A model generated the notes under the pieces. It was not told the DNA's origin. It searched no databases and saw only the letters and a list, made by a program, of their open reading frames with translations. Made by a program: the position numbers and the translations under genes. Shown here piece by piece: positions 5,289 through 19,576 of a DNA stretch of 64,000 nucleotides (its first letter is position 1; every line of letters begins with the position of its first letter). This stretch comes from Tuwongella immobilis (GTDB lineage: Bacteria; Planctomycetota; Planctomycetia; Gemmatales; Gemmataceae), in assembly GCF_901538355.1 (NCBI RefSeq), contig NZ_LR593887.1:5804920-5868919 (forward strand), read 5' to 3'.

Positions 5289-5393
5289 GCGTCGTCCTCC
5301 CGCGTGCGGTCACCCGAGATTATCCTATCGCACCTCACGGGAAATGCGAATCGGCCCCATGACCATCCGTTTGCGGGCGATCATCGGGCCAAT

Positions 5394-5481
5394 TGGAGTG
5401 TTGCGACTTTTCGTAATTCGATCATCACCGAATTACGATTTTTCGTATTTCGACTGCCACCGAATTACGATTTTTCGTAAC
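5394..5481. repeat. 32-bp-period tandem hairpin repeat
   Basis: About 2.7 copies of a 32-bp unit: a diverged copy at 5394-5425, then 5426-5457 and 5458-5479. The identical core is CACCGAATTACG followed by ATTTTTCGTA. Each unit contains TTACG...CGTAA, able to form a small hairpin with a T-rich loop. It sits between the 5' end of the helicase gene and the 3' end of the glycosyltransferase gene, both on the minus strand. It could act as a terminator for the latter or a binding-site array for the former. Confidence 0.6.
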
Positions 5482-5516
5482 CAAACTCATTCGCAATCAT
5501 GATTGCATCATGCGAA

Positions 5517-6992
5517 TCATGGCTTCGCATCGGTCGCAGGTGGCGTCGCGGGTTTGGTCGCACCGGGGAGGCGATCGTAGCGAATCAGCCACATCCAATG
5601 CAGGGTCACGCCACGGACATCGACCGTGTACAGCCCCAACACCTGCGGCGGGCCGAAACCGACCACATAATCCTCATGCAATGGCCGTTCGCAGAAGATC
5701 AAAAACTGATCGTAATCTTGGATATTCGCGGGAATCTGGGTGAAGTGACTCGCCCGAGTCATCCCCGGAATCTGCTCCGCCTTCAAACCCTGGAATCGCA
5801 GTTGGGCCGTCCATTGATACGACGACGTGAACACTGGCCATCCGGGATATTCGCGGTTGACACGCTCGGCAACGGATTGGACCGTGTCATAGATCGAACC
5901 AATTCGCACGATGCGATCCGACTTCGGCGGCACCACGGTAAAATGAACTTGCGAATGCACCGCTCCCAACAGCGTGCAGCCGACCGGCAGCGCGAAGCAG
6001 GCAAACGCCAACCGCCAGCGTTGTGCGGAATCGAGCAGCCAAACCGCAACCAACGGCCATAACGCGAGATAGCTAATCAACGGCCAGTTGGCTTCGAGCC
6101 GCCCTCGCAGCGCCTTCAGAATGAAAAAGCTGAATGGCAGCACGAACAGACACCAGCAGACTCGCAGACGCGGATCGGCCCAGAGGCGGCGACGATTGCG
6201 AATCGCCCACGGCAGCAGCACAAACGGCAGCAACCCCACCAGCACCAGTTGACCGACGAAAAATTCCGGGAAGGAGAGCAGCGAGTTGGAATGCGATTGC
6301 ATCGCGTGGCCGGCTTGGTACAGCAGCGGGGCAAAATCTCGCTGATAGTTGTAAATCAGAATCGGCGTCGTAACCACAAACCCCACCAGGAGATGCAGCA
6401 CAAAGCCACCCACCCAGCGCCGCAGCGGAGCCGCCAGCCAGAGACTCACCGCCGCCGACGGAATCAGCAGCGCCATGGTGTATTTGGAGAGGATTCCCAG
6501 CCCTAACAGCACCCCGCCGCCCAGCCACCACCCCACGCCGATCGGCAGCAGTTCGGCTCCCGGAATCGGCCCGATGGGTGTCGGCGGCGTCATGGTCTGA
6601 TGCAGTCGCACCAGCCAAAGCATGTACGCGGTCCAGAATAAAAACAGCGGCGCATCCGGGGTGATCAGAATCGAGCCAAGCACCAGCACCGGCGTGAGCA
6701 ATAGCAGCAACAACACCCGCGACGGCCGAGTGAGCGTGCCGAGCATCAGCAGCACCAGATACGCCCCCACACATGCCGGGAAGCGAATCGCAAAGACTGT
6801 ATTGCCAAAGAGTTCCGTCGATCCGCGAATCATCAGGGCAGTCATCAGCGGATGATCGTAATAGCTGAACTGAAGTTCCTGCGACCAGGCCCAATAATAG
6901 AGTTCATCGTCCACCGGCGGAATCACGGCCGCCAGCAGCAGATGCACCCCAAAAATCGCCGTCGCCAACGCCACAAACCAGCGCATCGCCAT
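5517..6992 (-). CDS. GT39/ArnT-like glycosyltransferase, integral membrane
   Basis: This 491-residue multi-spanning membrane protein resembles the PMT/ArnT family, which transfers sugars from polyprenyl-phosphate donors on the outer face of the inner membrane. After the first helix it carries the catalytic-loop signature PPVDDELYYW (about residues 25-34) and, nearby, YYDHPLMTALMIRGS. About ten hydrophobic segments follow, then a soluble C-terminal domain. Acceptor and donor sugars cannot be read from the sequence. Its first 29 codons and upstream region are part of a 187-bp direct repeat whose second copy lies 3,063 bp away, at the edge of the accessory island. Confidence 0.85.
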   Translation of the reverse strand: MAMRWFVALATAIFGVHLLLAAVIPPVDDELYYWAWSQELQFSYYDHPLMTALMIRGSTELFGNTVFAIRFPACVGAYLVLLMLGTLTRPSRVLLLLLLTPVLVLGSILITPDAPLFLFWTAYMLWLVRLHQTMTPPTPIGPIPGAELLPIGVGWWLGGGVLLGLGILSKYTMALLIPSAAVSLWLAAPLRRWVGGFVLHLLVGFVVTTPILIYNYQRDFAPLLYQAGHAMQSHSNSLLSFPEFFVGQLVLVGLLPFVLLPWAIRNRRRLWADPRLRVCWCLFVLPFSFFILKALRGRLEANWPLISYLALWPLVAVWLLDSAQRWRLAFACFALPVGCTLLGAVHSQVHFTVVPPKSDRIVRIGSIYDTVQSVAERVNREYPGWPVFTSSYQWTAQLRFQGLKAEQIPGMTRASHFTQIPANIQDYDQFLIFCERPLHEDYVVGFGPPQVLGLYTVDVRGVTLHWMWLIRYDRLPGATKPATPPATDAKP

Positions 6993-7910: not shown

Positions 7911-8594
7911 ATGACAACCTCGGACGTGACCGACTACTGCTTTGTCGTGGAAGTAGCGACTGACGACCAGGAATGGCAGTCGGTCGAACTCGACATCCAC
8001 GAACACGACGAGGCGGCCAAGGGTCAGTATTTGGGCGTCTGGCAGAAGCTGTGTCAAGCATTGCAGAAACACCACGAACTTGGTAAGAGGCCGCCTGCCC
8101 CAGAATGGGCGGCTTGGAAACCGGGCGAGTGGTGCGACCAGAAGCACGGATACGAGTCCCGGTTAAAGTTCGTGGCGACCTGCGGGGCAAACCTGGTCGG
8201 ATTCCTGAACTGCTGGCCGAACGTCCCATCAGTCTACGACTCGACGAAGCATGTGCTTTATGTGGAACACCTGGCGGCAGCACCGGGCAACATCGACTGC
8301 GAACTCTGGCGGAAGCGGTTTCGGTTCGTGGGACAAGCGCTGCTCGCGGTTGCCGTGCTGCTGAGCAAGCAGTACGGGCACGAGGGGCGATTGGGACTGC
8401 ATGTGGCGGACGATCGGGCGTTCGGGTTTTACCGCCACATCAGTGAGCGGCACTGCGGTGGGAATCTCTTCCACCCGGAGCAGACGGGCATTCCGGGACC
8501 GACTCCACGAAGAGAACACGAACGCTCGAAGAGGTATCTCGAAACAGTCGAGAATGCAGCGAGCGAATGGTTGGAAGGGTATCGACGTGACTGA
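7911..8594 (+). CDS. GNAT-like acetyltransferase
   Basis: This protein of about 227 residues has the layout of a GNAT acyl-CoA N-acetyltransferase. A central beta hairpin (FVATCGANLVGFLNCWPNVP) is followed by a strand with VLYVEHLAAAPGN. A helix in the acetyl-CoA-binding position follows (VGQALLAVAVLLSKQYG), then a final LGLHVADDRAFGFYRHI block typical of GNAT motifs A and B. ATG 7911 is chosen over the adjacent TTG 7908. The next ORF starts at GTG 8587 and overlaps this stop by 8 bp, indicating translational coupling of a two-gene unit. Substrate unknown. An acetyltransferase paired with an uncharacterised partner could be a toxin or resistance unit, but nothing here proves it. Confidence 0.75.
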   Translation: MTTSDVTDYCFVVEVATDDQEWQSVELDIHEHDEAAKGQYLGVWQKLCQALQKHHELGKRPPAPEWAAWKPGEWCDQKHGYESRLKFVATCGANLVGFLNCWPNVPSVYDSTKHVLYVEHLAAAPGNIDCELWRKRFRFVGQALLAVAVLLSKQYGHEGRLGLHVADDRAFGFYRHISERHCGGNLFHPEQTGIPGPTPRREHERSKRYLETVENAASEWLEGYRRD

Positions 8595-9748
8595 AATGAA
8601 GTTTACCCCGTTCAAACCCCGCTGGATGCGTGACCTCAGTGCCGAGGATCAACGCATTTTCGGGGAGACTCCATCCATCGGGTCACTCGTCGAAATCTCA
8701 CCACGAATCAATGCCCGCCTCCTGCCGTTCGGGGGATCGCACAAACTCTCCGCGAAGACGCTCAGTGACACCCTCGAACACATGCAGCAGGTCGTCCAGT
8801 ACGCCGGATACGACGTGTACCACGGCGTAAACCCTGATTTCGCCGACCTCCGCTCGCTGAGTTCCGAGGTTGTAAACCTCACGAAACTGACGATTGAACC
8901 GTAGTGCCGAGGATCAACGCATTTTCGGGGAGACTCCATCCATCGGGTCACTCGTCGAAATCTCACCACGAATCAATGCCCGCCTCCTGCCGTTCGGGGG
9001 ATCGCACAAACTCTCCGCGAAGACGCTCAGTGACACCCTCGAACGCATGCAGCAGGTCGTCCAGTATGCCGGGTACGATGTCTATCACGGCGTAAACCCT
9101 GATTTCGCCGACCTCCGCTCGCTGAGTTCCGAGGTTGTAAACCTCACGAAACTGACGATTGAACCGTTCGATGAAGGTAGCTTCGTCATTCCAGCCCGTC
9201 TCGAAACGAGGCCGCTCCAGCGAGAGGCCGGAGACGAGCAACCCGCACACGAAGTCGGGGCCGAGGACGTCGTCCGCCGGTTCGATGAAATCTTTGCGTT
9301 GGTTGGTCAACAATCGACCGCCACGCAGGTGTCGATCGGAGCAATCCAGACCGTCGAATCACTTGGCCGGTTGCTGCGCCGCGAGGTCGAGGCAATTGAG
9401 TTCACCACCTTCGATTCGCTCGGCATTCGGCGGAAACCGAATCCGATCCGGATCGACGAGGCGTTCCTCGGGCGTGTGTCCAAGGTCAAGGCGTCTCGCC
9501 AACCGACTCGGGCCAAGTTGGACACGCTCGAAGGGCGAGTCACGGCACTCGATATCAGCGAAGGGAAGCTGCAACTCACAGTCGATGGTCAATCACGGCG
9601 AGTCAAAGGGACATTTGCCATGCTCGTCCTGCAACCATTGCTGGAATCTCTCGGCCGACGAGTCAAACTTGAAGGCCACGTCGAGCGAAGCGGGCGAACG
9701 ATCCAATCGATTCAGATCTTGTCGGCAGAAGTTGTTTCGGAAGATTGA
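8587..9748 (+). pseudogene. Partner gene of the acetyltransferase, broken by a 265-bp tandem duplication
   Basis: The ORF from GTG 8587 (or ATG 8596) begins MKFTPFKPRWMRDLSAEDQR and stops at 8902-8904. The same block of about 88 residues (SAEDQRIFGETPSIG... to KLTIEP) is encoded again from 8906, in a frame shifted by one, and continues in a 280-residue frame to 9748. A single copy would give one continuous protein of about 380 residues. The duplication period (265) is not a multiple of three, so it truncates the first product and leaves the second without a natural start. The intact protein has no domain I recognise. It starts inside the stop region of the GNAT gene, so the pair was probably one operon. 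Confidence 0.75.
8639..9167 (+). repeat. 265-bp tandem duplication
   Basis: Bases 8639-8902 recur at 8904-9167. Most of the unit is identical, but a cluster of synonymous third-position differences occurs around 8780-8830 versus 9045-9095 (for example TACGTGTACCACGG versus TGTCTATCACGG). The clustered silent differences suggest recombination between two diverged alleles rather than a fresh slippage duplication. Confidence 0.9.
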
Positions 9749-9905
9749 GCCGAATCATTGGTGACCAATCCAAAAAGCACCCGCAGGAAGTGGAAGAACT
9801 CGTCAGCGGCGGTGCAGAGTTCGGCCTCGGGGAACGGGTCGCTGTCGGCGTCGGGGGCCGGGTGGGCCGCGGCGTCGAGGCGGCAACGATCCGGCGGCAG
9901 CGATC

Positions 9906-9972
9906 CGACAGGGCATGATTCGTTTCAGGGGGTCACCGCGCACTAGGCCGCCGCCGATGCTGAGATGGGTCG
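9906..9972 (+). repeat. Right half of an attC-like site (remnant)
   Basis: CGACAGGGCATGATTCG, then CCGCCGCCGATGCTGAGATGGGTCG, match the centre and right arm of the intact sites at 15591-15684 and 18237-18331. The homology stops immediately after the G where integron crossover would occur (TCG/TT); the chromosomal direct repeat (TCCACCGG) follows. Nothing resembling the left arm is present, so this is a half-site. The 157 bases before it (9749-9905) hold no recognisable gene. Confidence 0.7.
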
Positions 9973-10156
9973 TCCACCGGCGGAATCACGGCCGCCAGCA
10001 GCAGATGCACCCCAAAAATCGCCGTCGCCAACGCCACAAACCAGCGCATCGCCATCGCCCGCCCTCCCTGCGTTGCCGACGATGTACCCGACCCCCGAAA
10101 AAAAGTCTGCGCCGACTTCCCCCCTCACTCGAGATTCATCCAATTGACCCGATTCC
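9970..10156. repeat. 187-bp direct repeat, copy B
   Basis: Second copy of 6907-7093. Read on the minus strand it encodes the first 29 residues of the GT39 protein (MAMRWFVALATAIFGVHLLL...) and then runs into the attC half-site, so the gene fragment is fused to integron sequence. To the right, homology ends at about 10156. Bases 10157-10309 contain no recognisable gene. Confidence 0.9.
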
Positions 10157-10880: not shown

Positions 10881-11015
10881 GCTTTCATTCGACAGAATGG
10901 GAAGAATTTTTAGCAAAGTAGGCCGAATTATTCGCGGATCAGCTGGAATCGCCGTCCGATTAGACGGAATGCAATACCATCGAATCACAAATTCAACGGC
11001 AGGAAGGGGTTGACG

Positions 11016-11687
11016 GTGGATGAGCATGGCTGGCTGACCTCGGACGACCCAGCGGCGATGCTGCGTTCGCTCAACGCTTGGCTGCGGTCCGCCCAGCGGC
11101 GTGGCGAGTCGCCCGACTTGGAATGCCTCCGCCGATTCGCCTGCGCGTGCTGCCGCCGGCTGTGGCCGCTGCTCGACAACGACCACCGCACGGTGTTGCC
11201 CCAATCGTTGGTTCCGGCCCTGCGTTCGCAGCTCGAACGGGTACAAAATCTTCACCGCAGCGACTTGACGGCAGGGCGTGGTGAGGTGATGATGCCGGAG
11301 GCGTTGGGGCGAAAATATCCGCAGGCCAGCAAAGAATGGGGCTTGCAGTGGGTATTCCCATCCGCAAAGTTATCCGCCGATCCGCGTTCGGACCTGGTCT
11401 TGCGTCATCACGTGCACGAAGGAGCGATTTCGCGTTCGATCACCGAAGGTGCAAAGAAAGCAACGATCGTGAAGCAGGCGACAGCCCACACGCTGCGCCA
11501 TTCATTCGCCACGCACCTGTTGGAAGCCGGAACCGATCTGCGAACGATTCAGGAATTACTCGGTCACGAGAGCGTCGAAACTACAATGATCTACACGCAT
11601 GTGCTGAATCGTGGTCGCCTCGGTGTGATCAGCCCCCTCGACACGAACCCGCTTGACCTCGGGGAAACGCTCGGGGCGCAAGAGTGA
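11016..11687 (+). CDS. Chimeric, N-terminally truncated integron integrase (IntI-like tyrosine recombinase)
   Basis: Residues about 57-211 of this 223-aa product align from memory with the C-terminal part of integron integrases. It has the IntI-specific patch [10 protein letters not shown]...[15 protein letters not shown]...RHHVHE (about 94-134), [12 protein letters not shown] (H158, R161), [10 protein letters not shown] (H184) and the nucleophile in MIYTHV (Y193). SPLD follows, as in IntI1. The core-binding domain and the box I arginine are missing. Residues 1-56 ([20 protein letters not shown]...[13 protein letters not shown]) instead resemble the start of a different, common planctomycete hypothetical family. 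The protein is therefore a fusion and very likely inactive alone. GTG 11016 is chosen because AGGAAGGGG lies 6 bp upstream. It is on the same strand as the cassettes, with its 3' end facing them. Confidence 0.88.
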
Positions 11688-11696
11688 TTTACCCTG

Positions 11697-11868
11697 TTCG
11701 ATTGCGCCGGGCGCAAACTTTCGCTGGCGACAAATTCGAAAAAAAATGACCGGAACCAACGATTGGGATTAAAGTTACGCAGGAAGCAAACGTGACAACA
11801 AGACCGTGATCGATTGCGCGGCGCGCAAGGAGCGTTTCCTTGCGGCGCAATCGAATCAAGAGTTCGGC
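11697..11868 (+). other. Candidate attI region: palindrome-rich element ending at GTTCGGC (copy 1)
   Basis: It begins 10 bp after the integrase stop. TTCGATTGCGCCG (11697-11709) and its perfect complement CGGCGCAATCGAA (11843-11855) bound the element. Three perfect palindromes lie inside: TTGCGCCGGGCGCAA, TTGCGCGGCGCGCAA and TTGCGGCGCAA. It ends TCAAGAGTTCGGC at 11862-11868, after which cassette-type leader sequence (CGCGGAGG) begins. The position between intI and the first cassette, and the GTT core, fit an attI site. A second copy lies at 16536-16706. Confidence 0.65.
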
Positions 11869-11883
11869 CGCGGAGGGTCTCAG

Positions 11884-12015
11884 GTGTTCGGGCTTCTTGC
11901 GTACCTGAAGGCAAAGCGCGAGCGGCGGGCGATCAACTCGTCATCGTTCGCGTCCGACCCGGCGATGCTCCGTCTCTCGGATACCCGCCTCCGCAGGTTG
12001 TGCCCCAGCCTGTAA
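11884..12015 (+). CDS. Small ORF (43 aa) in the first cassette, possibly decayed
   Basis: GTG 11884 lies 9 bp after the conserved cassette leader CGCGGAGG and opens a short frame, MFGLLAYLKAKRERRAINSS, ending at 12015. The basic amphipathic N-terminus is protein-like, but the product is much shorter than the other cassette proteins and no family is recognised. It may be the surviving start of a gene whose remainder was lost, because the next frame (12092-12526) appears to lack its own N-terminus. Confidence 0.4.
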   Translation: MFGLLAYLKAKRERRAINSSSFASDPAMLRLSDTRLRRLCPSL

Positions 12016-12091
12016 CCTGACTGGTGGCGTCGGTGGGTTCCTCCGCTGCTTCTTCGGGGACGGCTTAGGGCAGCGGGAGTTCATCCGCGAC

Positions 12092-12526
12092 ATGTTGGCT
12101 CACGGCGACAGCCGGGCGGCGGTGGTGTTGCAGTCGCACCCATTGCTCGTCGCCAGCTACTGCGACGACTCCGACGCGGTCTGCGTGCTGGCGTTCGAGC
12201 AGGACGAGATCGGCGGGGCTGAACTTCGGGCCGGGGATCGCCTGCTGACCGTCCTCAACTCCGTTGTCCTCGACCGCCCCGCCTACGCTGGGGAGGTCGC
12301 GGCGGATTTGGTTCAGGGCGAGGCTGCCAATCCGCGGTACATCAACTTTTGGCCGCTGATCGCAGAGTTCGTCTCGGACAACATCGCGGAGATCGAGCGG
12401 CGGAAGGCGGCCATCCCCGACAGCGAGTACGCCCGCTGCCGGTCGCTCGGCGAGGAGCACAGGCGGCGGTTCACCGGCCGCGTGCGTGACGGGCGGCCGG
12501 ATCGGAGCTTGCACCCGGCCGGCTGA
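12092..12526 (+). CDS. Hypothetical cassette protein (144 aa), N-terminus uncertain
   Basis: The frame reads LAHGDSRAAVVLQSHPLLVA, then CDDSDAVCVLAFEQ, GDRLLTVLNSVV, NPRYINFWPLIAEFVSDNIAEIERRK and a basic tail. The reading frame stays open and protein-like upstream of ATG 12092 (GFLRCFFGDGLGQREFIRDM) without a start codon, so the true N-terminus was probably in that segment and has been lost, or a non-standard start is used. No domain is recognised. It ends 7 bp before an attC site, as expected for a cassette gene. Confidence 0.6.
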   Translation: MLAHGDSRAAVVLQSHPLLVASYCDDSDAVCVLAFEQDEIGGAELRAGDRLLTVLNSVVLDRPAYAGEVAADLVQGEAANPRYINFWPLIAEFVSDNIAEIERRKAAIPDSEYARCRSLGEEHRRRFTGRVRDGRPDRSLHPAG

Positions 12527-12533
12527 GCAAGAG

Positions 12534-12624
12534 GCCGAACCAGGCGCTGCAGCAGACCCCGCCTCATAGGTTGTTTGTAGGGTTCAGCCCCCTGGGGCGG
12601 GGCTGCTGAGCTTTGTCGTTCGGC
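12534..12624 (+). repeat. attC-like site 1 (91 bp)
   Basis: Starts GCCGAAC and ends GTTCGGC, which are exact complements. Inner boxes are GCTGCAGCAG on the left and CTGCTGAGC on the right, which pair with one extra G on the left arm. The inner stem continues CCCCGCC/GGCGGGG. The central loop is variable. Confidence 0.85.
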
Positions 12625-12640
12625 GAGCGGAGGCGCACCG

Positions 12641-13219
12641 ATGGCGGACGCGGTTCGGCTGATCCACAAGGCCATCGACCGCTCCGACGACGGCGACTAC
12701 GCGGGGGCGGTCAAGCTGCTGACGCGGGCTGCCGAGGCTGACCCGGCGAACCCGCAGGCGTACTACGAGCGGGCGATGGCGCTCGCCAACCTCGACCGCG
12801 ACCGCGAGGCCGTCGCGGACTTCGAGCGGGCACTGGCGCTTGACCCGGTGTTCCCCGGTGCCCGCGAGTGGCTGGCCCGCACCCTCCGCGGGCTGGGCGA
12901 GCACCGGCGGGCGGCCGAGGAGTGGCTGCGGCACCTGCGGGCCGAGCCGGACGGCCCGCAGGGCATGGGCGTCTGCCCGCAGACGTGGGCCGACTGCGCT
13001 GCGGACTTCGCTGAGGCCGGCGACCCGGCGCGGGCCGTCGGGCTGCTGGAGGAGTACCTGGCCCGGCACGCCTCCCGCGTGACCGCGTATGCGTGCTACG
13101 AGACGGCCCCGCTGCGGCTGCTCGCGCGGCTGCTGGAGCAGGCCGGCGATGCGGCGCGGGCGTCCGAGCTGCGAGAGCGGGCGCGTGCCAGCCCGCACCG
13201 GGTGCCGGCCAACGGGTAG
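12641..13219 (+). CDS. TPR-repeat cassette protein
   Basis: This 192-residue protein is built of helix-turn-helix tetratricopeptide repeats. IHKAIDRSDDGDYAGAVKLLTRAAEADPANPQAYYERAMALANLDRDREAVADFERALALDP is a clear pair, with the canonical A8, G/A, Y/A and P32 positions. A third repeat covers PGAREWLARTLRGLGEHRRAAEEW, and a looser helical C-terminus ends in RASELRERARASPHRVPANG. TPR domains mediate protein-protein contact; no enzymatic domain is attached. ATG 12641 lies 8 bp after a GGAGG supplied by the cassette leader. It is flanked by attC sites 1 and 2. The DNA is strongly GC-rich compared with the flanking chromosome. Confidence 0.85.
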   Translation: MADAVRLIHKAIDRSDDGDYAGAVKLLTRAAEADPANPQAYYERAMALANLDRDREAVADFERALALDPVFPGAREWLARTLRGLGEHRRAAEEWLRHLRAEPDGPQGMGVCPQTWADCAADFAEAGDPARAVGLLEEYLARHASRVTAYACYETAPLRLLARLLEQAGDAARASELRERARASPHRVPANG

Positions 13220-13229
13220 TGCCCCAGAC

Positions 13230-13324
13230 GCCGAACCAGGCGCTGCAGCAGACGGCGGGGCACGACGGCGTTCCGTGACGTGCAGGCTCGGTGGCCCCGC
13301 CGCTGCTGAGCTTGGTCGTTCGGC
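13230..13324 (+). repeat. attC-like site 2 (95 bp)
   Basis: GCCGAAC...GTTCGGC ends are perfectly complementary. The left box GCTGCAGCAG pairs with CTGCTGAGC, with an extra-helical G. The inner stem here is CGGCGGGG on the left and CCCCGCCG on the right, the strand-swapped form of that in site 1. Confidence 0.85.
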
Positions 13325-13340
13325 GAGGGAGGGCTTCAGG

Positions 13341-13904
13341 GTGGCGAAGGCCAAGATCCCGGCACGCAAGCGCCTCCCGTGGACCTACTTCGAGGCGCTC
13401 GGGTGGGGCGGCAAGCGCGTCGACGAGGAGCGGGCGCGGGGCATCGTCCGGCGGGTGGGTTTGGACGCCACCAATGACGGCGATACGCCGCTGACGGTCG
13501 CCGCCCTGCTGGGCCGGGCGGGCATGGTGCAGTGGCTCATCGACCAAGGCGCGGATGTCGAGGATGTCGCCCCGCACCCGTACTTCAAGCCGGCCCTGTG
13601 TGCAGCTGCCTACGGCAAGAGTCCGGAGGCGGCCGCGGTGCTGATCGCGGCCGGGGCCAACCTGGAGGCGCAGGATCGGTTCGGCCTCACGCCGCTGGCT
13701 AACGCGTTCATCAACTGTTTCACCGACCCGAGCCGTCTGGCGGCCCTGCTGCTGGGGCATGGTGCGGTGGTCACGGATCGAGTGCGGCGGTTGGGCGAGG
13801 AGTGGGATGCGGCGGGTTTCCGGGCGTTGCTCGCCGGGGCCGCAAGGCACGCCGAACCAGGCGCTGCAGCAGACCCCGCCTCACAGGTTGTTTCCAGACC
13901 ATAG
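13341..13904 (+). CDS. Ankyrin-repeat cassette protein
   Basis: GTG 13341 follows the cassette leader GAGGGAGGG and gives a 187-residue protein starting VAKAKIPARKRLPWTYFEAL. Ankyrin repeats are visible as TNDGDTPLTVAALLGRAGMV...LIDQGADVE, then KPALCAAAYGKSPEAAAVLIAAGANLE and DRFGLTPLANAFINCFTDPSRLAALLLGHGA. Such stand-alone ankyrin proteins bind other proteins, and related ones act as immunity proteins in polymorphic toxin loci, but no partner is visible here. The stop lies inside attC site 3, so the last residues (HAEPGAAADPASQVV) are encoded by the recombination site. Confidence 0.85.
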   Translation: MAKAKIPARKRLPWTYFEALGWGGKRVDEERARGIVRRVGLDATNDGDTPLTVAALLGRAGMVQWLIDQGADVEDVAPHPYFKPALCAAAYGKSPEAAAVLIAAGANLEAQDRFGLTPLANAFINCFTDPSRLAALLLGHGAVVTDRVRRLGEEWDAAGFRALLAGAARHAEPGAAADPASQVVSRP

Positions 13905-13942
13905 CTCAGTGGTGGCGGGGCTGCTGAGCTGGGTCGTTCGGC
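13851..13942 (+). repeat. attC-like site 3 (92 bp)
   Basis: GCCGAAC...GTTCGGC ends. GCTGCAGCAG pairs with CTGCTGAGC, with one extra-helical G. The inner stem is CCCCGCC/GGCGGGG. It overlaps the 3' end of the ankyrin gene by 54 bp. Confidence 0.85.
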
Positions 13943-13958
13943 GGCGGAGGTTTTTGGG

Positions 13959-14594
13959 ATGCGTCAGCCGACGACCGAGGACTGGGCGCGGTCGCACGAC
14001 ATCTCGACAGCCCCGACACCGCCCGCCGTCGAGGGCTATAACGAGCCGTGTGCGTTCACGGCGCGGCAGATCGCCACCCGGGCCGTCATCCTTCAGGGCA
14101 TCGTCGCGGTAGCATCCGACATCGATCCCGAGCCGGTCGCGGAATGGTTTCAGGACCAGGGGGTGTGGGAGTCCGTCAGCCCGAACGAGCGGGCGCTACT
14201 CGCCGACCCGTCGGCGGTGGGCTGGGACGCGACCCACGGGTTCCGGTGGCGTCAGGAGGCGGAGTGGACGCTGCTGTGGACGGTCGGCAAGGTCGAGGCG
14301 CTCGGGCTGCCCGTCCGGCGGTGCGACACCCGCCGGCTGGTGGATGAGATCATCCCTCCGCTTGGGGCGGACATCGAGCCGTTCCTGGCGTCGGCCGAGT
14401 TGCGGCCGCCGGGGGTACTGCTGGCCGAGGACGACCGGCACTACGACCTCTGGTGCCGGTACTTCCAGACCCGGCGGGAGGGCGATCACCGGTTGCCGAG
14501 CGACCTGGAAGTGAGCGTCCTGTACCAGCGGCAGTATGCGTTCGAGTGGCTACATGGCATCGAAGCATGGGACGACGTACAGTGCGACGCCTGA
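13959..14594 (+). CDS. DUF4272 family cassette protein
   Basis: This 211-residue protein fits DUF4272 as I know the family. The N-terminal half has TARQIATRAVILQGIVAVAS, then WFQDQGVWESVSPNERALL and RQEAEWTLLWTVGKVEALGLP. The C-terminal half has YDLWCRYFQTRRE...DLEVSVLYQRQYAFEWL, followed by the hallmark WDDV near the end. Function of the family is unknown. ATG 13959 is 8-9 bp after the leader GGCGGAGG. attC sites 3 and 4 flank it closely (stop to site 4 only 2 bp). Confidence 0.85.
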   Translation: MRQPTTEDWARSHDISTAPTPPAVEGYNEPCAFTARQIATRAVILQGIVAVASDIDPEPVAEWFQDQGVWESVSPNERALLADPSAVGWDATHGFRWRQEAEWTLLWTVGKVEALGLPVRRCDTRRLVDEIIPPLGADIEPFLASAELRPPGVLLAEDDRHYDLWCRYFQTRREGDHRLPSDLEVSVLYQRQYAFEWLHGIEAWDDVQCDA

Positions 14595-14595
14595 C

Positions 14596-14690
14596 GCCGA
14601 ACCAGGCCCTGCAGCAGACGGCGGGGCATGAGGCGGTTCCCAGGGTTCAAGCTCCTGCAGCCCCACCGCTGCTGAGCTGGGTCGTTCGGC
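14596..14690 (+). repeat. attC-like site 4 (95 bp)
   Basis: GCCGAAC...GTTCGGC ends. CTGCAGCAG pairs with CTGCTGAG with an extra-helical G. The inner stem is CGGCGGGG on the left and CCCCACCG on the right. It starts 2 bp after the DUF4272 stop. Confidence 0.85.
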
Positions 14691-14706
14691 AGCGGAGGGC
14701 GCTCGG

Positions 14707-15096
14707 ATGGCGGATGACGACATGCCGATGGTGGACCGCATCCGGGCGAACGCCGAGTTGGTCGTATCCGTCGCCGCCCGGCAACTCGGGGAGGCGGTCG
14801 GGTACGACGAGGCCGGCGTCCGCTGGCTGGACGGGTACATCCAGCGGCAGCACGAGCAGGGTGACCCGGCCAACCGGGACGGGCTGGTCAGCACGCTCGG
14901 GTCGTTCCTGGGCGAGTGCATCGTCCGCAGCTTCGGCGGGGCGTGGGCGGAAGTGGACGGGTCGTGGTGCGTGCGGTTCGACGACCGCAACGCGGCCTAC
15001 CCGTTCGCCAAGGTCGGCAAGCACCTGGAGCACGGGGCCGAGGACTCGGTGCTGAGCTTCTTCACTGTCATCCCGGTGGTGTTCCGGCGGGTGTAG
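14707..15096 (+). CDS. Uncharacterised cassette protein (129 aa)
   Basis: This acidic soluble protein reads DRIRANAELVVSVAARQLGE...GVRWLDGYIQRQ, then LVSTLGSFLGECIVRSFGGAW, DGSWCVRFDDRNAAYPFAKVGKHLEHG and EDSVLSFFTVIPVV. The layout of an N-terminal helical half, a FLGECI helix, then a W-rich strand and FAKV..LE.G.EDSV motif recurs in stand-alone bacterial proteins I have seen annotated only as hypothetical. I do not know a name for it. The leader AGCGGAGGG lies 8 bp before ATG. Flanked by attC sites 4 and 5. Confidence 0.75.
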   Translation: MADDDMPMVDRIRANAELVVSVAARQLGEAVGYDEAGVRWLDGYIQRQHEQGDPANRDGLVSTLGSFLGECIVRSFGGAWAEVDGSWCVRFDDRNAAYPFAKVGKHLEHGAEDSVLSFFTVIPVVFRRV

Positions 15097-15103
15097 CACA
15101 GAC

Positions 15104-15169
15104 GCCGCCTCAGCCGCGGCACCTGACAGCCGACTCGTAGCTGCCCCGCAGTGAGAATCATCGTTCAGC
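15104..15169 (+). repeat. attC-like site 5 (66 bp, short variant)
   Basis: Left arm GCCGCCTCAGCCGCGGCACC differs from the canonical GCCGAACCAGGCGCTGCAGC mainly in the outer box. The right end is GTTCAGC followed by the leader GGAGG. The outer boxes no longer pair well, so this site may be impaired. The same left arm recurs at 23129. Confidence 0.65.
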
Positions 15170-15181
15170 GGAGGAGTCGCG

Positions 15182-15583
15182 ATGACATCGGAAGCGTTGT
15201 TTGACAAGCTAGCTGCCCTCGCCGACCGGGTCGTTGCCGACAAGCGGTGGCAGGAGCAAAGTGACGATCTCGGCGTCTCCGTCTTCGGGATGTTGCTGTA
15301 TGGATACGGTCTCGGCGTTGGCCGCCTCATGATGCTGCTCGATGTCGAGGACATTAACGCCGCCGTCACCCGCTGCCTCGTCGAGCGGGTTGGGGTGGCG
15401 GCGAAGTGGGGCGGCGGCTTGGTCGAGGATGCGGCTCGCTCCGCCTTCGATGAGGCGTATCACCCCGGCCAGCACGAGTTGATTGGCGTCGGGCATCAAT
15501 ACATGGGTGAGGGGAAGGTTGGCAAACTGGTCGGTAACGTGTTCGCCAACATCGAGAGCATGCGACGTCGGACCGAGGGATAA
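15182..15583 (+). CDS. Uncharacterised cassette protein (133 aa)
   Basis: This helix-rich soluble protein reads MTSEALFDKLAALADRVVAD, then a hydrophobic centre VFGMLLYGYGLGVGRLMMLLDVEDINAAV. A C-terminal part follows with ARSAFDEAYHPGQHELIGVG and VGNVFANIESM. The central stretch could be a buried helix or a membrane-associated segment. No family is recognised. ATG 15182 follows the leader GGAGGAGT by 6-7 bp. It lies between the short attC site 5 and the degenerate site 6. Confidence 0.7.
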   Translation: MTSEALFDKLAALADRVVADKRWQEQSDDLGVSVFGMLLYGYGLGVGRLMMLLDVEDINAAVTRCLVERVGVAAKWGGGLVEDAARSAFDEAYHPGQHELIGVGHQYMGEGKVGKLVGNVFANIESMRRRTEG

Positions 15584-15590
15584 GCCCCCC

Positions 15591-15684
15591 CGCCCCAGAC
15601 ACTGCACCTGACGACAGGGCATGATTCGTTTCAGGGATTCACCGCTCACTCGGCCGCCGCCGCTGCTGAGTGGAGTCATTCAGC
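15591..15684 (+). repeat. attC-like site 6 (degenerate outer boxes)
   Basis: The left end CGCCCCAGACACTGCACCTG lacks the GCCGAAC box. The centre (GACAGGGCATGATTCGTTTC) and right arm GCCGCCGCTGCTGAG match other sites. The right box is ATTCAGC rather than GTTCGGC, so the crossover GTT is lost and the site is probably dead. Confidence 0.65.
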
Positions 15685-15699
15685 GGCGGAGGGCTTTTT

Positions 15700-16239
15700 G
15701 TGACGAAGGGCTTGGAAGCACTCAAGGTCAAGGCGTTCACACGAGACCGCGTACCCAACGACCACCCTGGCGGCGATCTCCCGTGGCAGACCTACCACAC
15801 GGTTCGCAACGCCCTGGTCAAGACCTGCCGCCGGTACGGGCCGACCGGGCCGATGGGTGTCATCAAGATCGTGGAGGGTGTCGAGAACCCGCTGATGATG
15901 CTGGCCAAGGACCAAGACTTCTGGGAGTCGGGCGATCCCGACCCGGCGTACTTCATCCTCGACGGCCAGCCCAACCACGAGCGATACTGTTACGCCGAGT
16001 TGTACGGCGACGACCCGTTCAACGCCGGCTGGCTGATGTCGATCACAGAGACGCTCCGGGAGTTCGACGGCTGGGGGCTGTGCGTGAGCAACATCCCCGA
16101 CAGCTACCTCCTGATCTTCGGCAAGCGGCTGATGGTCAAAGGACGGCTGGCCAAGTGTCAGTCCGCGGCGGAGGTTGTCGCCGAAGCCCGGCGGTTGCTC
16201 AAGCGGGGCAACAAGAAGTGGTGGCAATTCTGGCGGTGA
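15700..16239 (+). CDS. Uncharacterised cassette protein (179 aa)
   Basis: GTG 15700 follows the leader GGCGGAGGGC by about 6 bp and is preferred over an upstream GTG at 15670 that lies inside the attC arm. The product reads LEALKVKAFTRDRVPNDHPG, WQTYHTVRNALVKTCRRYGP, GVIKIVEGVENPLMMLAK, AYFILDGQPNHERYCYAELY and DGWGLCVSNIPDSYLLIFGKRLMV, ending in a lysine/tryptophan-rich tail (NKKWWQFWR). It is an alpha/beta soluble protein with no domain I can name. The aromatic basic tail might contact the membrane or another protein. Confidence 0.7.
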   Translation: MTKGLEALKVKAFTRDRVPNDHPGGDLPWQTYHTVRNALVKTCRRYGPTGPMGVIKIVEGVENPLMMLAKDQDFWESGDPDPAYFILDGQPNHERYCYAELYGDDPFNAGWLMSITETLREFDGWGLCVSNIPDSYLLIFGKRLMVKGRLAKCQSAAEVVAEARRLLKRGNKKWWQFWR

Positions 16240-16535
16240 GTCAGACACCCCGCCCCAGCAACTTCATCCTCGACTAACGACGCCCCGTTCTGACTCTCCT
16301 GGCTGCTAACCGCCCCTGGCACGACCGCCCCCGCCGCTGCCTCGCCCAATCTGGATTGCGGGGCAGCAGCGTTTCCCAAACGCGGTTGAAAGGTTCGCAC
16401 GCACCCGATCCGACGATTTCGGAGGAATAAGTTCGCCTGAGAATGCGGTTGGAAAACTGGCGAATTTTCGATTGCACATCGGTACCGGGATTGAGTAATC
16501 TCGAATAATCGGAAAAGCGAACTCCGATTCGGTAT
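16240..16535. other. Gene-free stretch with site remnants
   Basis: No coding frame is convincing in these 296 bases. The first part (GACACCCCGCCCCAGCAAC) resembles the degenerate left end of attC site 6. Further on, GCCCCCGCCGCTGCCTCGCC may be the relic of a right arm. The rest, ending in an AT-richer stretch with repeated CGATT elements, has no counterpart in the window. It may be an ORF-less or decayed cassette. Confidence 0.4.
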
Positions 16536-16706
16536 TTCGATTGCGTCGAACGCAAACTTTCGCTGGCGACACCTTTGGAAAAACCGACCGGAACCAACGA
16601 TTGGGATTGAAGTGACGCAGAAAGCAAACGGGACAACAAGACCGTGATCGATCGCGCGGCGCGCAATGAGCGTTTCCTTGCGGCGCAATCGAATCAAGAG
16701 TTCGGC
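16536..16706 (+). other. Second copy of the candidate attI element
   Basis: It aligns with 11697-11868 over its whole length (171 versus 172 bp). The boundary palindrome changes from TTGCGCCGGGCGCAA to TTGCGTCGAACGCAA, including one compensatory C-G to T-A change, and TTGCGGCGCAA is kept. It ends AATCAAGAGTTCGGC at 16706, followed by the cassette leader GGCGGAGG. Here it lies inside the array rather than next to an integrase gene. Confidence 0.7.
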
Positions 16707-16722: not shown

Positions 16723-17094
16723 GTGGCGTTGCTGTTCTTGGGTACGAGCCGGTGTTCGATCTGCCGCGAGGTGCTGCACCCCGGCCAGGCGATCGTGGCC
16801 ACCACGCATTTCATCGCGGACGAAGCCGACCCGCTCTCCCGGTTCTCGGACACCGGCATGCACCATGAATGCTTCGCCGGGTGGGAGCACCGGGACGAGT
16901 TCGCCGCCCGCTACCACGCGGCCCTCGGCGTGAGGCTGACCGGGTGGGTGCCGGTGGTCCCCGCCAACCCCGGTGGCCCGCCTCTGCCGCGGTGCCAGCT
17001 AGGGGTGCTGGGCACGCCGGAAGCGCGGGCCGGGTACTTCGAGGCGTTGCGGGCGCGGGTCGCCCTCCGCCGCCGAACCAGGCGCTGCACCTGA
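16723..17094 (+). CDS. Small zinc-ribbon-like cassette protein
   Basis: GTG 16723 lies 8 bp after the leader GGCGGAGGG, and the product is about 123 residues. The N-terminal part reads LLFLGTSRCSICREVLHPGQ and later DTGMHHECFAGW, giving a CxxC...HxxC arrangement typical of a small zinc-binding treble-clef or ribbon. The remainder (HRDEFAARYHAALGVRLTGW...) is helical, then proline-rich. Proteins of this layout are known to me only as hypothetical. The last residues (RTRRCT) are encoded within attC site 7. Confidence 0.7.
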   Translation: MALLFLGTSRCSICREVLHPGQAIVATTHFIADEADPLSRFSDTGMHHECFAGWEHRDEFAARYHAALGVRLTGWVPVVPANPGGPPLPRCQLGVLGTPEARAGYFEALRARVALRRRTRRCT

Positions 17095-17168
17095 CCCGGC
17101 GGGCATGTAGGCTTTCCCAGTGTTCAAGCTCCCTGGTGCCGCCGGTCAGGTGAGCTGAGTCGTTCGGC
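17072..17168 (+). repeat. attC-like site 7 (97 bp) with co-varied inner boxes
   Basis: GCCGAAC...GTTCGGC ends. The inner boxes are GCTGCACCTGAC on the left and GTCAGGTGAGC on the right. These pair with one extra-helical G, although the sequence differs from the GCTGCAGCAG/CTGCTGAGC of sites 1-4. The stem extends through CCGGCGG/CCGCCGG. This is direct evidence for a conserved structure rather than a merely duplicated sequence. Confidence 0.85.
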
Positions 17169-17726: not shown

Positions 17727-18272
17727 ATGGCGGAAGCCCCCGACGTGTCCGGGTTGTCGCAGCGGGCGCGGCTGGCGATAGCCCTGCACCTGTTCCACGG
17801 GTATTGCGACGGCCGCGGGCTGCACCACCCGGAGATCGACCGCTACCTCGCCCACCTGTGGGAGTTCGTCGGCCTCTACGGCGACCCCGGTGCGTTCAGC
17901 GAGTGGGTCGGCCGCGAGCCGGACCTGACTCACGTCGGGCTGGGCGACCCGTACCCGCCGCCGTTCGCGGCGGCGCTGGCGGCGGCCGGGGTGGCGGAGG
18001 CGGAGTTCCGGCGGGCGCTAGAGTTCTGCACCGAGGTGCTGTACATCAGCATGTACGGGGCGTGCAACGAGCCGCGGACCCGCGAGTTCCTGGCCGGGCT
18101 GGCTGGCGTCGCCGTGCCGCTCGGGGCGCGGTGGCCGGACCTCGCGGTGTTCGCCGGGTCGCGGTGGGCGGACGCGGGCGGGTGGGGCCGACGCCCGTCC
18201 GCTGAGGAGCTGGCTCGCTGGCGACCGGCAAGGCACGCTGAACCAGGCGCTGCACCTGACGACAGGGCATGA
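17727..18272 (+). CDS. Uncharacterised helical cassette protein (181 aa)
   Basis: An alanine-rich all-helical soluble protein: LSQRARLAIALHLFHGYCDG, EIDRYLAHLWEFVGLYGDP, FAAALAAAGVAEAEFRRALE, CTEVLYISMYGACNEPRTRE and FLAGLAGVAVPLGARWPDLA. No catalytic motif or named family is recognised. The translation runs into attC site 9, so the last dozen residues (HAEPGAAPDDRA) are site-encoded. The leader GGCGGAGG lies 7-8 bp upstream of ATG 17727. Confidence 0.7.
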   Translation: MAEAPDVSGLSQRARLAIALHLFHGYCDGRGLHHPEIDRYLAHLWEFVGLYGDPGAFSEWVGREPDLTHVGLGDPYPPPFAAALAAAGVAEAEFRRALEFCTEVLYISMYGACNEPRTREFLAGLAGVAVPLGARWPDLAVFAGSRWADAGGWGRRPSAEELARWRPARHAEPGAAPDDRA

Positions 18273-18331
18273 TTCGTTTCAGGGATTCACCGCTCAGCGT
18301 TCGCCGCCAATGCTGAGATGGGTCGTTCGGC
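18237..18331 (+). repeat. attC-like site 9 (95 bp, hybrid)
   Basis: GCTGAAC...GTTCGGC ends. The left box is GCTGCACCTGAC (as in site 7), but the right box is ATGCTGAGATG (close to sites 1-4), so the inner arms no longer match well. This looks like a hybrid produced by recombination between two site types. Its centre matches site 6. Confidence 0.75.
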
Positions 18332-18487
18332 GGCGGAAGTTCGCTCGCATTTTTGCTTGCACCATTTGACAGACACTCAACGGGCGGTTAACCTCGCCAG
18401 TCAAGCTGGCGCGGCGAAATCGGCTCATCTCGGGCGAGAGAGATTGCGCCAGAGATTGCGACGGCGCAATCGAATCACAAGTTCGGC
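18332..18487 (+). repeat. ORF-less promoter cassette, copy A
   Basis: Bases from GGCGGAAGTTCGCTCGC to the GTTCGGC at 18481-18487 recur, shortened, at 19451-19576. The element carries a near-consensus promoter (18366-18394). It ends in GATTGCGCC...GGCGCAATC, then GAATCACAAGTTCGGC, which resembles the right end of the candidate attI elements. No ORF is inside. The next gene starts 7 bp beyond it. Confidence 0.75.
18366..18394 (+). promoter_or_regulatory. Sigma70-like promoter inside the array, copy A
   Basis: TTGACA (18366-18371), a 17-bp spacer and TAACCT (18389-18394). The -35 is consensus, the -10 keeps T1, A2 and T6, and the spacer is optimal. It points at the gene beginning at 18494. The same promoter occurs at 19485-19513. 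Confidence 0.55.
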
Positions 18488-19022: not shown

Positions 19023-19394
19023 ATGGTCCACTGGCACTATATTGGCTTCATCGACCCACGGCGGCCGATCGACCTCTCGCAGCGGCCAAGCCCCCCACTC
19101 CCGGTTCGCCCCATGCCGCCGGATCTGGTGGCCCGGCTGGCTGAGCAACACGGGGTGGTGCGGAGTGAGGAAGTCGTGGACCGAGGCGGCTACTTTCTCA
19201 GCCACCTTGGCAGCTTTGGGAAGTTGCACCCGTTCGAAGCCGCGTTAGTCGCCGAGGGGTGCATCGTTCTGTCCGAAATGGGCATGGTCGTACAGCCGCC
19301 CGAGGCGGTCGCAGCGTATAACGAGTTCGTCGCCGAGTGGGCGGTGTCACACGCTGAACCAGGCACTGCGGCAGACGGCAGGAACATTAGCTGA
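19023..19394 (+). CDS. Uncharacterised cassette protein (123 aa)
   Basis: The product begins MVHWHYIGFIDPRRPIDLSQ, followed by RPMPPDLVARLAEQHGVVRS, GGYFLSHLGSFGKLHPFEAA and LVAEGCIVLSEMGMVVQPPE. It is a small alpha/beta protein of unknown family. The C-terminus (HAEPGTAADGRNIS) is encoded by attC site 11 and has the same HAEPGxAAD signature as the ankyrin and helical cassette proteins, since all read the same frame of the site. A GGACGAAGAAGG stretch precedes ATG. Confidence 0.65.
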   Translation: MVHWHYIGFIDPRRPIDLSQRPSPPLPVRPMPPDLVARLAEQHGVVRSEEVVDRGGYFLSHLGSFGKLHPFEAALVAEGCIVLSEMGMVVQPPEAVAAYNEFVAEWAVSHAEPGTAADGRNIS

Positions 19395-19450
19395 TTTCAG
19401 GGATTCACCGCTCACTCGGCCACCGCCGTGGCTGTTCTGGGGCGTTCGGT
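19353..19450 (+). repeat. attC-like site 11 (98 bp)
   Basis: GCTGAAC...GTTCGGT ends. The left arm ACTGCGGCAGACGGC and right arm GCCACCGCCGTGGCTGTTCTG pair only partly. The centre again matches sites 6 and 9. The overlap with the upstream gene's 3' end is 42 bp. Confidence 0.7.
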
Positions 19451-19576
19451 GGCGGAAGTTCGCTCGCATTTTTGCTTGCACCATTTGACAGACACCCAAC
19501 GGGCGGTTAACCTACGGCGAATCGGCTCATCTCGGGCGAGAGAGATTGCGACACGCAATCGAATCACAAGATCGGC
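19451..19576 (+). repeat. ORF-less promoter cassette, copy B
   Basis: Shortened repeat of 18332-18487. It keeps GGCGGAAGTTCGCTCGCATT, the promoter, GGCTCATCTCGGGCGAGAGA and the terminal hairpin GATTGCG-ACA-CGCAATC. The final core is degenerate (AAGATCGGC instead of AAGTTCGGC). It precedes the DinB gene. Confidence 0.75.
19485..19513 (+). promoter_or_regulatory. Sigma70-like promoter inside the array, copy B
   Basis: TTGACA (19485-19490), 17-bp spacer, TAACCT (19508-19513). It differs from copy A only by one base in the spacer. It points at the DinB-family gene at 19594. Confidence 0.55.

Follow-up and report, generated by a model that had tools for sequence, protein, structure and literature searches.

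Integrase remnant, element and cassettes at the locus

The window analysed here is a 64,000-nucleotide stretch of the planctomycete Tuwongella immobilis (contig NZ_LR593887.1, positions 5,804,920 to 5,868,919 of the forward strand). It carries two copies of a palindromic element, at window positions 11697-11868 and 16536-16706 on the plus strand, the first ahead of an array of integron cassettes and the second inside it. We conclude, with considerable confidence, that this element represents the attI of a chromosomal integron of the Gemmataceae type, multiplied to 14 copies that head or interrupt cassette arrays, and that the integrase gene intI has been lost or cut to pieces. The two copies are 91% identical and look just as the original prediction described them, with a common GTTCGGC end, an outer inverted repeat of 22 nt (82% complementary) and three TTGCG/CGCAA motifs. 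Both are of a long form, with the core dyad and R box discussed below lying at 11806-11868 in copy 1 (GTTCGGC at 11862-11868) and at 16644-16706 in copy 2.

Copy 1 starts 9 bp past the stop of an open reading frame (ORF) at 11010-11687 (plus strand, 225 aa). The original prediction had placed it between the integrase stop and the first cassette, and the position is right; the gene in front of it is only the remnant of an integrase, with an unrelated N-terminal stretch of some 55 aa joined to what is left of an integron integrase, its C-terminal half (about 11181-11645). It matches positions 160-314 of the 315 in TIGR02249 at about 218-219 bits, below the cut-off of 265, and its alignment with the full IntI of a relative begins at IntI residue 175. 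The N-terminal domain is missing, as is the box GxRLLECLRLRVKD, whose arginine in the relatives we take to be the first catalytic arginine. This ORF is nonetheless the best integron-integrase match in the genome, followed by two smaller C-terminal intI pieces at genome positions 5361230 and 4842103. An intact integrase was also looked for and the idea given up, since TIGR02249 finds partial C-terminal pieces only: no full-length IntI was found in the single 6.69-Mb contig, an assembly that could miss a plasmid carrying intI. Intact intI is thus absent from this assembly.

The cassettes were delimited with a covariance model of attC (R1) built from 19 attC sites of this genome, which reports 51 sites genome-wide. 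On the plus strand of the window, the first cassette behind copy 1 ends in an attC at 12534-12624 (92.9 bits), followed by others at 13230-13324 (93.7 bits), 13851-13942 (91.6 bits) and 14596-14690 (91.8 bits), all four in the training set, and by one at 15592-15684 (48.9 bits, outside the training set) in the part of the array that precedes copy 2. The first cassette behind copy 2 has its attC at 17072-17168 (93.6 bits, in the training set); this cassette recurs behind the attI at genome position 6166105, with 87% identity over 517 bp including the attC and an identical join point. Two further attC sites, at 18237-18331 (69.5 bits, in the training set) and 19353-19450 (43.3 bits, outside it), adjoin with their R boxes the promoter-attI units described below. 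Between two recognised attC sites, 15099-15175 resembles a decayed attC (a member of repeat family D4) that R1 does not report. The cassettes at 12625, 13325, 13943, 16707, 17169 and others have in common a GGCGGAGGG-like leader right behind the R box, which may be a ribosome-binding site.

The conserved core

In the core of the element, two 9-bp arms (GATAGATTGCG/CGCAATCTAAT) form an inverted repeat that shows covariation from genus to genus, and behind them stands the R box, GTTCGGC, from which every cassette starts. The core comes in two forms, a short one of 40 nt and a long one of 63 nt. The conserved repeat is that of the middle motif pairing with the right motif. The left palindrome, tried as a conserved unit, was rejected, as by eye it is not kept among the nine full-length copies. 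The compensatory change that had been claimed for it is half correct: one pair goes from C-G to T-A, while the other is broken (C-G to C-A). The earlier suggestion that the palindromes might bind a regulator or integrase would be compatible with the covarying dyad, the left palindrome being the part that is not conserved.

Covariation was examined in 20 short sites, comprising 15 of the 45 sites found in other genomes of the family, three from this genome and two older loci (L026 and L110). The dyad is paired in 92.8% of 180 cells, 13 of which are changed on both sides, by AT/CG, TA/CG, CG/AT and GC/AT exchanges; none of 500 shuffles reached as high a value, and versions slid along the sequence reached at most 40%. 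At all 45 family sites we also asked how well the sequence complementary to the right arm of that same site could be found within 60 bp upstream. It was found better than with arms swapped between sites: for 7-mers the mean was 5.98 as against 5.31 for 2000 shuffles (maximum 5.64), with 15 perfect matches as against a maximum of 11. In the long form of this genome the same dyad arms make a single extended hairpin (z of -4.3 and -5.2). This covariation would fit either two integrase-binding arms or a hairpin, and the G-T pairs that occur in the dyad do not decide between them. Most copies end in GTTCGGC, with cassettes beginning directly behind; diverged R boxes read CTTCGGC, ATTCAGC, GATCGGC, ATTCGGC, GTTCGAC and GTTCGGT.

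Copies in the genome

The original prediction treated the element as a two-copy feature, which proved far too low. A search of the single contig (6,690,754 bases) gives nine full-length copies at 100% to 78% identity, and a right-end pattern, followed by inspection of the sequence around its matches, uncovered five of the short form: 18448-18487 and 19538-19576 in the window, 6166085 and 6168167 in the genome, and 3743415 on its minus strand. R2, a covariance model built on the short form, finds 12 copies in this genome at E <= 3.3e-9, three of them from its training set and nine not used in it, with antisense and noise matches next, after a gap; the diverged copies at 1522398 and 1526639 complete the 14. 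All nine full-length copies have a same-strand attC 177-1,542 bp past the GTTCGGC end, no full-length copy lies away from attC arrays in this genome, and no match to the element was found among 72,556 plasmid records. The element therefore belongs to integron arrays, as the attI reading of the original prediction had it; copies sitting mainly away from integrons, which would have told against that reading, were not what the search turned up. At least six copies (16536, 18448, 19538, 5361440, 1522398 and 6168167) stand in mid-array, with a same-strand attC upstream.

Toward the cassettes, pairwise homology among the copies always breaks off just past the R box, at about +168 to +190 of 172. The cassette side is different in every copy, and the upstream side falls into classes; the left boundary varies with the class, and there is no common insertion frame. 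In the first class, copies 11697 and 5361440, the element follows the 3' end of intI. In the second, copies 5360469 and 1511314 have 511 bp in common that reach into non-integron DNA, including the 3' part of a gene, and that end in a promoter-like region and the first 21 intI codons, which are fused directly to the element; at 1511314 the intI 5' stub, aligned to the IntI starts of relatives, reads MPNVPAKPTMLLDAVREKYRL. A third, hybrid class (4838778, 1522398 and 1526639) has a common 90-bp block that starts at an attC R'', runs through the attC left half and enters the last 50 bp or so of intI, and that is preceded by a different ORF at each of the three places. In the fourth, a 146-bp block ahead of copy 2 (16389-16535, plus strand) is common to the minus-strand copy at 3742970 (homology -146 to 0, 88.7%) and holds the pair TTGCAC (16472-16477) N18 TAATCT (16496-16501), with TAGTCT in place of TAATCT in the other copy. 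The promoter-like pairs of the intI-stub and 146-bp-block classes were identified by eye alone.

Two units on the plus strand of the window, w3 (18332-18487) and w4 (19451-19576), contain no ORF. Each begins directly behind an attC R box and ends at an attI R box, with different cassettes following. In w3, the promoter-like pair TTGACA (18366-18371) N17 TAACCT (18389-18394) precedes the short-form attI at 18448-18487; in w4, the same pair (19485-19490 and 19508-19513) precedes that at 19538-19576, whose R box reads GATCGGC. Copies 6166085 and 6168167 have TTGACA-N17-TAGCCT about as far away, and there the pair follows the 3' end of a host gene that is duplicated. The region 6165786-6168230 (L147:5786-8230) as a whole contains host gene 3' end, promoter and attI twice, 84% identical over 377 bp, with cassettes between. 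A strict sigma-70 scan gives few promoters. With TTGACA-N17 and a looser -10 motif, the pair is present at 4 of the 14 sites in this genome (shuffled mean 0.05), a count that is partly circular because the motif was shaped on w3 and w4, and at 4 of 39 family sites (L182, L183, L209 and L211; shuffled mean 0.09, maximum 3), none of which was used in shaping it.

The window thus holds four attI copies, at 11697, 16536, 18448 and 19538, and its array gives the impression of a composite that has four starts. The fusion of two arrays that had been proposed for the second copy is plausible but too small an explanation, given four attI in the window and 14 in the genome. The first start may also be internal, because a weak attC match at 9885-9974 (22.4 bits, E 0.007) precedes the intI remnant, some 1.7 kb before copy 1, and suggests an older array on that side. 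Beyond it, the overlapping ORFs 8401-8904 and 8894-9748 have about 90 residues that are nearly letter-identical, a recent internal tandem duplication.

attI sites in related genomes

Allowing no more than one mismatch, the right-end pattern was run on 95 genomes of the family ("family" being the kinship level of the search tool) and gave 58 sites, 13 in this genome and 45 in others, against 3 for the reversed control. Eleven of the 45 have a same-strand intI or intI fragment upstream, nearly full length in eight cases and fragmentary in three. Looking beside intact intI genes in relatives, as the original prediction had advised, bears out the attI reading: in these Gemmatales-type planctomycetes the homologous site was found behind eight nearly full-length genes, whose stops lie 139-193 bp before the pattern site. 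There intI is on the same strand as attI and array, and is therefore co-oriented with the array.

More than 1 kb of upstream sequence is visible, with no same-strand intI match, at 23 of the 45 sites, and five are too close to a contig end to judge. A same-strand attC lies downstream of 28 of the 45, including 17 of the 23 without intI, and upstream of two; attI-headed arrays without intI are common in the family. Six sites that lie within ORFs and look like chance matches (L192, L197, L199, L200, L208 and L213) were kept in the arm-swap, attC and strict-promoter counts and dropped from the looser promoter scan, leaving 39. At E <= 1e-4, R2 has matches in 37 of the 95 family genomes, with two or more in 21 (in G022 one place was matched on both strands). 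In 294 genomes of the phylum it gives, under strict filters, weak single matches in seven other genomes (best 6.4e-6), and the dyad form therefore seems limited to the family.

Several genomes have more than one site. Of the nine in G032, a full intI precedes one, a split intI precedes another, and the remaining seven lack intI; downstream of five of those seven lies an attC on the same strand. Two of its sites without intI (L182 and L183, genus g33) carry TTGACA-N17-TTAGCCT, placed 88-90 bp ahead of the pattern site. G031 has three intI loci, and two of its attI sites, without intI, head attC arrays. Service of several attI in trans, by an apparently intact intI elsewhere in the genome, is likely in these two genomes. 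G009 has four attI sites without intI. Its otherwise full-length IntI (G009:C13, L107/L223) reads YGTGMQMLECLRL, with Gln where nearly all other IntI checked have Arg (GMRL/GLRL), and may therefore be inactive; for this reason G009 gives weaker support for service in trans.

Two further observations concern intI loci elsewhere. Metagenome bins titled Bordetella parapertussis (L017 and L071), possibly wrongly labelled, hold intI genes close to the query. At L042, downstream of intI (ORF 4419-5603), two GTTCGGC junctions about 190 bp apart have CAAxCTAAT/CAAxCCAAT-like left parts, possibly a tandem attI in a distant planctomycete.

Interpretation and alternatives

The identification of the element as attI is well supported. 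It draws directly on homology, on position before attC arrays and, in relatives, behind intact intI, on covariation of the dyad and on the loss of intact intI from this assembly. From these we infer integrase binding, strand exchange at the site, promoter activity and the filling of arrays by an integrase from another locus. The 3' end would be the integrase simple site, with an L box ATCGAAT, a spacer and the R box G^TTCGGC, and cassettes would join after the G; the inverted repeat before it probably holds further integrase-binding arms.

Several points weigh against this identification. The proposed L box (ATCGAAT-CAAGA-GTTCGGC) is only an inverted purine/pyrimidine match, judged by eye. The 20 sequences used for dyad pairing were picked for their equal 40-nt spacing, and R2 does not recognise the two copies that have diverged most (1522398 and 1526639). 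Seventeen of the 45 family sites have no downstream attC, six of them being the probable chance matches inside ORFs and several others lying at contig ends. Finally, with no integrase in the genome, present-day activity cannot be inferred. A functional intI being absent, membership is claimed for the attI site and not for a working integron.

As to how the copies arose, the integron platform appears to have been multiplied in this genome, with intI lost or reduced to pieces beside some copies. Some of this would have been duplication that took upstream DNA with it; other copies may have spread as units delimited by recombination sites. Several copies have their own promoter-like region directly upstream, so transcription of the following cassettes is probably started anew at each. 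On this view promoter-attI units would have moved as cassettes and attI would be acted upon in trans. Taken together, this leads to a tentative proposal that we regard as possible, if rather short of probable: a platform that is split in this planctomycete family, with many promoter-attI modules, spread over the chromosome, served in trans by a single intI that often lies at another locus. The modules could enter arrays as attI-ending cassettes and would give several first positions, each with a promoter.

An explanation that comes close to an even chance of being correct is that only tandem integrons and segmental duplication were involved, with platforms (upstream DNA, promoter, intI and attI) copied by ordinary recombination and then decaying, so that the extra attI are passive debris and the units never moved as cassettes. 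The common upstream blocks do reach non-integron DNA, both in the 511 bp before 1511314 and 5360469 and in the host gene end before 6166105 and 6168186, and intI remnants persist beside several copies. Less easily accommodated are w3 and w4, which run exactly from attC R box to attI R box and whose neighbouring cassettes differ on either side, the half-attC/intI-tail/attI block preceded by three different ORFs, and the promoter-attI modules of the same layout in genus g33 (L182 and L183).

It is unlikely that the element serves the preceding cassette as its 3' recombination site, as an attC of giant size or unusual make-up would. In the three hybrid copies an attC left half (R''-L'') does stand in front, so that R'' and the terminal R box could pair, and class 1 and 2 cassettes ending in a partial attI are reported to recombine (PMC12901181). 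The element itself, however, has no R''-L'' half and is not reported by R1, 11 of the 14 copies have no such half directly in front, and the core lies behind intact intI in relatives. A transcriptional regulatory element of the arrays, acting as operator or leader hairpin and not in recombination, would account for the promoter-like pairs upstream of several copies and for the strong core hairpin, and is still less probable, for the conserved part ends at the R box, the cassette junction, as in attC, and no conserved operator overlaps the promoters. A dispersed palindromic element (a miniature inverted-repeat transposable element or repetitive extragenic palindrome) merely sitting in integrons, for which the outer inverted repeat, the several copies and the palindromic composition might speak, can safely be rejected, as the copies are not independent of integrons: the full-length ones all lie directly ahead of attC arrays in one orientation, two have not preserved the left arm of the outer repeat, plasmid records hold no match, and the core follows intact intI in relatives.

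Comparison with described integrons

The attI reading can be set beside several known systems. attI1 of class 1 integrons is likewise a site beside intI, with a GTTRRRY R box and crossover after the G and with upstream repeats; it has an inverted L box, for which ATCGAAT would be the counterpart here, and is a double-stranded primary site with additional integrase-binding repeats, DR1 and DR2 (PMC12901181). In the present case transcription of intI runs toward the array, 14 copies exist, and the accessory repeat takes the shape of an inverted dyad that covaries and comes in 40-nt and 63-nt forms. The reverse-oriented integrons of Treponema resemble it in having intI co-oriented with the array (PMC3607928), whereas here attI is multiplied, often without intI.

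Closest among the described cases are the delta-attI-type cassettes of mobile class 1 and class 2 integrons, in which attI or a part of it replaces attC in the array (including attC-ORF-deltaattI) and has been shown to be recombined by IntI1 (PMC12901181). The same layout, with attI sequence replacing attC at the cassette 3' end, is present in w3, w4 and the three hybrid copies. The published examples are antibiotic-resistance cassettes in mobile integrons; here the setting is a chromosome, with promoter-attI units and half-attC/intI-tail/attI hybrids. The promoter-bearing gene-less cassettes of Vibrionaceae also lack an ORF and can restart transcription inside an array, but apparently end in attC (PMC11014356), whereas here the unit ends in attI. 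Arrays without a nearby intact intI recall the CALIN (an attC cluster without integrase), from which they differ in keeping attI, often several, and sometimes a promoter.

attI is said to be poorly known outside class 1 integrons (PMC9024848) and is single per integron in the standard description (PMC3607928). A literature search, largely not covering subscription journals, found no report of several attI per integron, of orphan attI or of a planctomycete attI.

With a family-wide attI model that includes covariation, attI becomes searchable in a phylum where it was not so before, and apparent CALINs become attI-headed arrays. Such a model also makes it directly testable whether many docks can be fed by a single integrase. 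Should promoter-attI units move as cassettes, expression of an array would be restartable anywhere along it, altering the idea that position relative to a single promoter sets cassette expression.

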